Made by a program: the position numbers and the translations under genes. Under the pieces are notes generated by a model. It saw only the letters and a program-made list of their open reading frames with translations. It did not search any database and was not told the origin of the DNA. Below are positions 30,298 to 32,965 of a DNA stretch of 42,344 bases, one piece after another (position 1 is the first letter of the stretch; every line of letters starts with the position of its first letter). Source of the stretch: Flavobacteriaceae bacterium (GTDB lineage: Bacteria > Bacteroidota > Bacteroidia > Flavobacteriales > Flavobacteriaceae); the NCBI GenBank assembly GCA_029247985.1, contig JAQWKF010000003.1:1-42344 (forward strand). Reading direction: 5' to 3'.

Positions 30298-30951
30298 TTA
30301 GTTCCCCTTCTTGTAGTCAGCTAAAAATTTAGCCAAACCAATATCGGTTAACGGATGCTTTGCCAAACCAGCAATGGCACTCAACGGACCTGTCATAACA
30401 TCGGCACCGATATGTGCACAGTCAATAACGTGCATGGTGTGACGCACAGAGGCGGCTAAGATTTCTGTAGTAAATGAATAGTTGTCGTAAATATTTCTAA
30501 TGTCTTCAATCAACTGAAGCCCATCAGTAGAAACATCATCTAAACGACCTATAAAAGGCGAAACATACGTGGCACCGGCTTTTGCTGCAAGCAATGCCTG
30601 ACCCGTTGAAAAGACTAGGGTACAGTTTGTCTTGATGCCTTTGTCTGAAAAATACTTGATGGCCTTAATACCTTCTAATATCATGGGTATTTTAACTACA
30701 ATTTGCGGATGAAGTGCCGCAAGGGCCTCACCTTCTGTAATCATTCCCTCATAGTCAGTTGCGATAACTTCAGCAGAAACATCCCCTTCTACGATTTCAC
30801 AAATGGCTTTGTAATGGGCTATGATATTATCTTGTCCCGTAATTCCTTCTTTGGCCATCAAAGATGGATTGGTTGTAACCCCGTCTAAAATGCCAAGGGA
30901 TTGTGCTTCTTTGATTTGATCTAAATTGGCAGTATCGATAAAAAATTTCAT
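30298..30951 (-). CDS. fsa: transaldolase / fructose-6-phosphate aldolase family
   Basis: [36 protein letters not shown], '[14 protein letters not shown]', '[32 protein letters not shown]'. Confidence 0.93.
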
Positions 30952-30955
30952 GTGT

Positions 30956-31768
30956 TTAATTTAAATTATAAAAGGATGCTATAAGGTTTTCATAAGCTCG
31001 TTGGGGCAACAAAAACTTAATTATTGGCGAAAGTACTTCTAAAAATGGACCTACGCTGTAATGTGGCTTTAATTTCTTTTTATTTAATAGTTTTTCAATT
31101 TTTATAGCCACACTAATCGGCGGAAGTCCCTTATTGACATGACTGTCCATGTCTGCTAGTGAAGCCTTGTATTGTGTATAATACATGGAATCCTCAGAGA
31201 GGGGGGCATAATACCGGTTTTCAGCAATGGCTGTTTTAATAGAGCCTGGAGATAATACGGTACACTGTATGGGTGTGTGGCGCAATTCTAAGCGTAAGCT
31301 TTCGCTAACGCGCATAAGTGCTGCTTTTGAGGCAGCATAAATACTCCGGAAAGGCAAACCATTATCTCCCGCAAGAGAAGCCACATTGATAATAACACCA
31401 GATTGCTGCTTGTGCATAAACGTTAATGTATGTTGCATAACACGTATTGGGCCATTTAAGTTTGTGTTCATAAGGCTGTCAACCGCCTTCAAATCCATTT
31501 CTTCCAAAGGACCAGCCATACCCATACCGGCATTGTTAATTAACACGTCTATTCGTGAAAACTGTCCAATTACAACATCAATTCCATCTTTTACAGAAGT
31601 GTTGTCCAACACGTCCATAGCTATTAAGGGAAATGGATGATTAGGGTATTTATCGGGGTTTCTACTTGTACCCACAACTTGATATTGTAATGAAGATAGG
31701 TATTGCCCTACTGAAAGACCTATTCCTGAAGAAGCACCTGTAATGAGAACAACGCGTGAATTTTTCAT
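30956..31768 (-). CDS. SDR-family oxidoreductase
   Basis: [26 protein letters not shown] motifs. Confidence 0.92.
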
Positions 31769-31776
31769 AAAAAAAA

Positions 31777-31870
31777 GGCAGGCTACCTACAGCACACCGC
31801 TACGACCACTTACCCTTGCTGCGTTTCCGCCCTGGGGGATTCAGCAGGAGCTGGTTGTGTAGAACCTGCC
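31777..31870 (-). ncRNA. ffs: bacterial small signal recognition particle RNA (4.5S-type)
   Basis: Minus strand GGCAGGTTCTACACAACCAGCTCCTGCTGAATCCCCCAGGGCGGAAACGCAGCAAGGGTAAGTGGTCGTAGCGGTGTGCTGTAGGTAGCCTGCC: helix-8 core CAGGGCGGAAACGCAGCAAGGG, closing stem GGCAGG/CCTGCC and CTACA/TGTAG, U8 tail. Confidence 0.92.
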
Positions 31871-31875
31871 CAATG

Positions 31876-31883
31876 CAAATATA
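31876..31883 (-). promoter_or_regulatory. -7 box TATATTTG of the SRP RNA gene
   Basis: TAnnTTTG, 5 nt before the first base of the SRP terminal stem. Confidence 0.65.
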
Positions 31884-31942: not shown

Positions 31943-32965
31943 ATGAATCTTCGCTTATTAACCTTTCTGGCCCTTGCCCTACTTCTGCTTTCGGCTTGCT
32001 CATCGAAACAGTCGCTCCGCTACAAAATAACCACTACCTCTAGTGCTAAAAATCCAAGCATAGCGGACACCATCTTTTTATCGATTAAGCCAGCTGTTGA
32101 ACAACAGTCTATCAGTTTTTATCACGATGATGAGGTACTTCAAGTACCCTATATAATTCCGTCAAAAACAGGAGAGCAAACGGTAAAAGCAGTTATTGAA
32201 ACAGCTGATGGAAACAGCGAAATATCGAAAACCATTAGAGTGTTTGCGCCTAATAAACCTAAAGTGTTTGGGTATGAATTAATTCAAAGCTACCCACATG
32301 ATATTAACGCTTACACCCAAGGTTTGGAGTTTGTCAACGGTACATTGTTTGAAAGCACTGGTCAGTATGGCAATTCATCGTTGCGAAAAGTAAATTTTAA
32401 GACGGGAGAAGTCATTCAAAAACTACCTATCGACAAAGCTTATTTTGCAGAAGGCATCACCCATTTTGACGGTAATATCATCCAATTAACCTGGAAAAAG
32501 AAAGTAGGGTTTGTCTACAATTCCGATGATTTAACTCTAGAAAAATCGTTTTCATATACCAAAAGCCCTGAGGGTTGGGGACTGTGTAGCGACGGTAATT
32601 TTTTATACAAAACCGATGGCAGTCAAAAGCTTTGGAAGCTTGATCCCAATACTTTCGAAGAACTATCCAGTCAAGACATAGTTACTCACAACACTTTTCT
32701 CTCTAAAGTAAACGAACTTGAATATGCTAATGGTAAGATTTATGCCAACACCTATCAGTTTAATAAAGATGTGGTTGTTATTTTTGACCCAAATACAGGG
32801 ATTGTTTCTGGTGTTGTTGACTTTTCCGGACTCAAAAAAAAGGTTACCCAACACAATCAATTAGACGTATTTAACGGAATCGCCTATCACCCAGAGCGCA
32901 AGACTTTCTTTGTAACAGGAAAATACTGGGACAAACTATTTGAAGTAAAAATAATTGAAAAATAA
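31943..32965 (+). CDS. glutaminyl-peptide cyclotransferase, lipoprotein
   Basis: Lipobox ALLLLSACSS; 'SYPHDINAYTQGLEFVNGTLFESTGQYGNSSLRKV' hallmark; start refined to 31943. Confidence 0.9.
   Translation: MNLRLLTFLALALLLLSACSSKQSLRYKITTTSSAKNPSIADTIFLSIKPAVEQQSISFYHDDEVLQVPYIIPSKTGEQTVKAVIETADGNSEISKTIRVFAPNKPKVFGYELIQSYPHDINAYTQGLEFVNGTLFESTGQYGNSSLRKVNFKTGEVIQKLPIDKAYFAEGITHFDGNIIQLTWKKKVGFVYNSDDLTLEKSFSYTKSPEGWGLCSDGNFLYKTDGSQKLWKLDPNTFEELSSQDIVTHNTFLSKVNELEYANGKIYANTYQFNKDVVVIFDPNTGIVSGVVDFSGLKKKVTQHNQLDVFNGIAYHPERKTFFVTGKYWDKLFEVKIIEK

Follow-up and report, generated by a model that had tools for sequence, protein, structure and literature searches.

Introduction

In E. coli, the promoter of a stable RNA drives a downstream protein gene in the metY-nusA-infB and tRNA-tufB operons. 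In such tRNA-mRNA operons, RNase P and 3' processing release the tRNA ends, and the parts are not separated by a terminator hairpin with a U-tract. In gammaproteobacteria, ssrS (6S RNA) and ygfA (5-formyltetrahydrofolate cyclo-ligase) are cotranscribed, and their linkage is conserved with unclear function (PMC2848244; PMC4064990). The principle of a stable-RNA leader is already known from these 6S RNA and tRNA operons. None of the papers searched described an SRP RNA as an mRNA leader of such kind, and searches for read-through of ffs or SRP RNA in Bacteroidota returned nothing; neither ffs nor SRP is mentioned in the main text of the transcriptome paper on Flavobacterium psychrophilum (PMC9723704).

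Here we analysed a contig stretch of 42,344 nucleotides from a Flavobacteriaceae bacterium (the window), in which ffs, the gene of the small SRP RNA, precedes a short-chain dehydrogenase/reductase (SDR) gene and fsa. Like ssrS-ygfA, the locus has a metabolic gene directly behind the gene of an abundant structural RNA, but the RNA is the SRP RNA, phylum and gene are different, and the SDR ATG borders directly on the terminator U-tract; cotranscription has been demonstrated for ssrS-ygfA, whereas we infer it for ffs-SDR. With the tRNA-mRNA operons the locus shares a stable-RNA promoter ahead of a protein gene, and it differs from them by its terminator hairpin and U-tract. Larger Flavobacteriaceae genomes have the same genes in the same order and on the same strand, but with a gap of 40–200 nt enriched for a predicted SDR promoter. 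Together these genomes form a clean evolutionary series from spaced neighbours with promoter-enriched gaps to fused neighbours without a promoter, which illustrates how streamlining can make a stable-RNA gene an mRNA leader; ffs-SDR is also a case in which expression through a leaky terminator can be put to the test. We lean, with somewhat better than even confidence, towards the account that streamlining removed the spacer and its promoter and that SDR-fsa is expressed by read-through of the ffs terminator.

The ffs-SDR junction

The features of the locus are collected in Table 1. The ffs match covers the full length of RF04183 (model positions 1–107), well above the gathering score of 55.2 bits, and the related model RF00169, run against the window's assembly (1.29 Mb, 64% complete), did not find a second copy. 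Read on the minus strand, the closing stem of ffs (...GTAGCCTGCC) has its last base at 31777 and reads CCTGCC directly before eight T (31776–31769), which run into the SDR ATG (31768–31766). The original prediction had described this succession of 3' stem, eight T and ATG, with a transaldolase gene 4 bp behind the SDR gene, and had proposed an Rfam comparison for fixing the ends of ffs; the sequence, the full-length match from 31878 to 31772 and the 4 nt between the SDR stop and the fsa start (30951) bear it out. An assembly error or chance as the source of the junction was rejected, as ffs occupies the corresponding place in all 11 close relatives (orthologues 65–94% identical, separate assemblies), with 7–9 nt from stem to ATG and a U-tract of U6–U9, sometimes followed by A or C. 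The abutment in the window is real.

Table 1. Coordinates of the features at the ffs-SDR-fsa locus of the window
Feature	Position	Strand	Assignment or remark
fsa/talC-type fructose-6-phosphate aldolase / transaldolase gene	30298..30951	-	TIGR00875
SDR gene, 270 aa	30956..31768	-	Pfam adh_short, E 3.5e-45
U8 tract	31769..31776	-	ffs 3' end, intrinsic-terminator-like; the same 8 nt precede the SDR start codon
ffs, small SRP RNA (4.5S type)	31772..31878	-	RF04183, 98.6 bits, E 1.5e-19
TATATTTG, predicted sigmaA -7 box of the ffs promoter	31876..31883	-	just upstream of ffs
Glutamine cyclotransferase lipoprotein gene	31943..32965	+	PF05096, E 2.8e-86; divergent, other side of ffs

The fsa product scores 283.3 bits against the TIGR00875 cut-off of 245.95. 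The best NCBIfam match of the SDR protein is 3-ketodihydrosphingosine reductase (KdsR, NF049977), with 204.9 bits against a curated cut-off of 400 bits, and because of this shortfall we file the protein only as an SDR.

The start context of the SDR gene is poor. Its translation looks inefficient, because positions -8 to -1 are all U, which leaves -3 without an A, and the SRP stem, ending 9 nt before the AUG, falls inside the expected ribosome footprint; initiation in F. johnsoniae benefits from an A at -3 and from low structure (PMC6847099). The poor context and the missing promoter (see below) would both be understandable if the gene began further in, or if it were decaying and needed no expression, but we regard this as extremely improbable. 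The in-frame codons upstream of the ATG read TTT TTT CTT TGC GCC GTA TAG, placing a stop (31789–31787) 21 nt upstream with no ATG, GTG or TTG between it and the ATG at 31768, and the Rossmann motif TGASSGIG starts at residue 10, so the start at 31768 is forced and an internal start was rejected. In agreement, the N-termini align across all orthologues. Comparison with the five closest orthologues gives a dN of 0.03–0.06 and a dS of 0.5–0.96 (dN/dS about 0.05–0.08), so the gene is under purifying selection, is functional and has to be expressed.

Conservation of the neighbourhood

We sampled 182 ffs loci across Flavobacteriaceae, mostly one genome per genus. An SDR homologue is the next gene on the same strand at 166 of the 182, followed in most cases by fsa within the DNA examined. 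The synteny proposed for checking is therefore family-wide, and the same-strand linkage typical of an ssrS-ygfA-like dicistron of structural RNA and mRNA is present. Synteny as proof of cotranscription was nevertheless rejected, for the divergent glutamine cyclotransferase gene upstream of ffs, which cannot be cotranscribed, is equally conserved (164/182).

Beyond the family, the SDR gene is absent from the 23 ffs loci of other families of the order. In five of these (L252, L260, L261, L265 and L274), fsa lies downstream of ffs without the SDR gene, at about 43–95 nt in the first four and about 700 nt in L274. Because fsa follows ffs in families that lack the SDR gene, the ffs-fsa linkage seems to be the older one; the SDR gene was either inserted between ffs and fsa in the ancestor of Flavobacteriaceae or lost elsewhere. 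The SDR homologues of Weeksellaceae (about 40% identity) were not used as orthologues, as the ffs pattern was not matched in their flanks (up to 3 kb per side, less on short contigs).

Some genomes depart from the common arrangement. G016 has two above-cut-off ffs matches on different contigs (L212 and L216), neither with SDR, fsa or cyclotransferase nearby. Two compact genomes reported as 95% complete, G093 and G189, yielded no match to SRP RNA even when E values up to 1 were allowed, reflecting either assembly gaps or a divergent ffs.

Spacing and genome compaction

The gap between ffs and the SDR gene has a median of 75 nt among 165 loci (interquartile range 54–118) and is at most 20 nt in 28, hereafter called tight; it is 40–200 nt in most genomes and 7–18 nt in compact ones. 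Gap and genome size are correlated (Spearman 0.50, p 7.6e-11, n=153 genomes), a statistic that ignores kinship, and the median genome size is 1.7 Mb at gaps of 20 nt or less versus 3.3 Mb in loosely spaced genomes, again with kinship ignored. A tree built on SDR+FSA gathers the tight loci in one main clade, with an MRCA support of 0.93 and including two members with gaps of 26 and 54 nt, while L022, L131 and L206/L193 stand separately; on this tree, tight abutment appears to have arisen about four times. The spacing between SDR and fsa shrinks in parallel in the same genomes, to 4–6 nt in the compact clade (5 nt), the median of loose genomes being 92 nt.

Compaction is general in the window genome. 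In a survey of 40 contigs and the window (331 kb), 47% of same-strand gaps were 10 nt or shorter. Where the gap was at least 40 nt, 42 of 112 genes had a perfect promoter box (TAnnTTTG, see below) upstream, compared with 4 of the 69 that were packed to within 15 nt. Tightly packed genes here therefore normally share or borrow an upstream promoter.

Promoters around ffs and the SDR gene

A perfect TAnnTTTG within about 25 nt of the ffs start was found at 162 of 165 family loci, compared with 5.9 +/- 2.4 in shuffles. The profile of these 162 ffs promoters (L001–L031, L112–L251) also has a TTG 22–20 nt upstream of the box, an A-rich AAAAG kept between the two, and a C directly after the box. In the window, the TATATTTG box, which is kept in close relatives, is the sole predicted promoter for ffs-SDR-fsa, and a TTG at the usual spacing from it is not evident. 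As the sigmaA box of F. psychrophilum occupies -12 to -5 (PMC9723704), the same spacing would make the first G of the closing stem, near 31871, the mature 5' end of the ffs RNA.

We trained a two-box score on the ffs promoters, whose own median is 17.5. No TAnnTTTG-like box lies between ffs and the SDR ATG in the window, as had been claimed, and the best two-box score there is -5.6. The 28 tight loci behave alike: no promoter-like box scores above 1, and the best scores over the 60 nt that precede the ATG have a median of -5.6. Loose gaps contain a perfect TAnnTTTG in 31 of 132 cases versus 11.3 +/- 3.2 in dinucleotide shuffles, with a median two-box score of 4.46 versus -0.67 when shuffled and higher box scores on the forward than on the reverse strand (p 2e-20). 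The box often lies 15–25 nt before the SDR ATG, and at 15–19 nt in 12 of the 21 loose gaps scoring 9 or more, which fits the short flavobacterial leaders (median 24 nt in F. psychrophilum; PMC9723704); typical cases are found in eight genera, where TTTGG...CATCTTTG stands 16–19 nt before the ATG. The SDR gene thus likely has its own predicted promoter in many loose genomes. With a perfect box in only about a quarter of the loose gaps, such a promoter is not predicted for every one of them. By sequence, the tight genomes offer no room for one. The lack of a promoter between RNA and protein gene, as in an ssrS-ygfA-like dicistron, thus applies to the compact clade (28 loci), whereas many loose genomes have a box. 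For fsa, a strong promoter-like box (score 10 or more) was found within 60 nt upstream in 9% of the 128 genes scored across all loci; given this and the wider SDR-fsa spacing of loose genomes (median 92 nt), the compact clade may have lost a separate fsa promoter too.

The original prediction had offered three routes by which SDR-fsa could be expressed, namely read-through of ffs, an unrecognised promoter inside ffs or a start codon further in. The third falls with the in-frame stop and the residue-10 motif, and the absence of a sigmaA box leaves the first two for the compact clade. An unrecognised promoter might lie outside the TAnnTTTG model, either as one for an alternative sigma factor or as a degenerate box in the 3' half of ffs, and would give a leaderless or nearly leaderless SDR mRNA starting at or near the U-tract. 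We consider this rather unlikely. Alternative-sigma motifs account for about 7% of transcription start sites and leaderless mRNAs for 5.5% in F. psychrophilum (PMC9723704), and an AUG directly after a U-tract would suit such an mRNA. However, the sigmaA-type score of the tight genomes (about -5.6) equals that of the same ffs stretch in loose genomes, which gives no sign that a promoter has evolved inside ffs; the ffs sequence is moreover constrained by its RNA. The two-box scan was negative for a promoter inside ffs at all 28 tight loci, and it found no sigmaA box at the distance from the AUG that a leaderless mRNA would require.

Terminator and possible route of expression

The closing duplex of ffs has a predicted energy of -22.6 kcal/mol and is followed by U8, the stem and U-tract expected of an intrinsic terminator. 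Since both look like parts of a good terminator, termination at the U-tract could be near complete. Partial termination at predicted intrinsic terminators has been described in F. psychrophilum, with 67 transcribed regions (PMC9723704). Closing-stem energies of tight and loose genomes lie in the same range (p 1.0), and the U-tract is longer in the window's clade (mean 7.5, U7–U9); in tight genomes outside this clade it is slightly shorter, with 6.3 vs 6.9 (p 0.006, with kinship ignored). Selection for a weakened terminator was rejected on the unchanged stem and the longer U-tract; nor does selection for strong read-through fit well with the terminator of the window's clade, which is intact.

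As a single promoter remains, SDR-fsa most likely relies on leakage past the ffs terminator, and read-through is the likeliest route that we infer for the compact genomes. In the course of events that we propose, ffs, SDR and fsa are old neighbours in Flavobacteriaceae, as the family-wide pairing shows, and most genomes have kept a spacer after the ffs terminator, statistically enriched for a predicted sigmaA promoter that is presumably active. In streamlined genomes, the spacer and any promoter in it appear to have been deleted, leaving the SDR start codon directly on the ffs U-tract. SDR and fsa are still kept by purifying selection, as seen for SDR, and hence have to be transcribed. Incomplete termination at the U-tract would then let a small fraction of transcripts from the ffs promoter continue into SDR-fsa, and the resulting SDR mRNA would carry the SRP hairpin until 8 nt before the AUG. 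Alternatively, and more speculatively, cleavage at the mature 3' end of the SRP RNA might yield a near-leaderless SDR mRNA, which would ease the poor start context.

The original prediction saw an unusual leader that could couple metabolism to SRP RNA, a reading that did not hold up well. Such a regulatory 5' leader, with SDR-fsa tied by selection to SRP RNA synthesis or processing, could draw on the family-wide ffs-SDR linkage, the position of fsa next to ffs in certain other families of the order and the repeated origin of the tight abutment, yet it strikes us as very doubtful. The divergent cyclotransferase gene is just as conserved without being cotranscribed, most members of the family keep a gap enriched for promoter boxes, SDR and fsa have moved together in the same genomes, and the closing stem is not weakened in tight ones. 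The abutment instead reads as streamlining because the pair is family-wide, most gaps are promoter-enriched, the divergent neighbour is equally conserved and gap follows genome size; ancient synteny combined with genome streamlining is most likely its best explanation. Although conceivable, a dedicated link to SRP RNA levels is a reading that we do not favour. We hold it decidedly doubtful that the SRP RNA is an obligate 5' leader of the SDR-fsa mRNA in a large marine flavobacterial clade, where 3'-end formation (termination versus read-through or cleavage) would set the expression of the two enzymes and tie them to protein-export capacity.

A second candidate in the window genome

The window genome has another stable RNA that runs into a coding sequence. 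A tRNA-Val(GAC) gene precedes a UPF0047 (PF01894) gene at L295 (9716–9231, minus strand, contig C20), with a TACTTTTG box upstream; an in-frame ATG of UPF0047 lies 4 nt after the end of the tRNA, leaving no room for a second promoter. The pair is repeated at L284 (contig C9), which may be an assembly duplication. Judged by this arrangement, the tRNA is a second candidate leader in the same genome. Both loci combine a structural RNA with an upstream box, and the tRNA pair differs from ffs-SDR in having no terminator between its parts.
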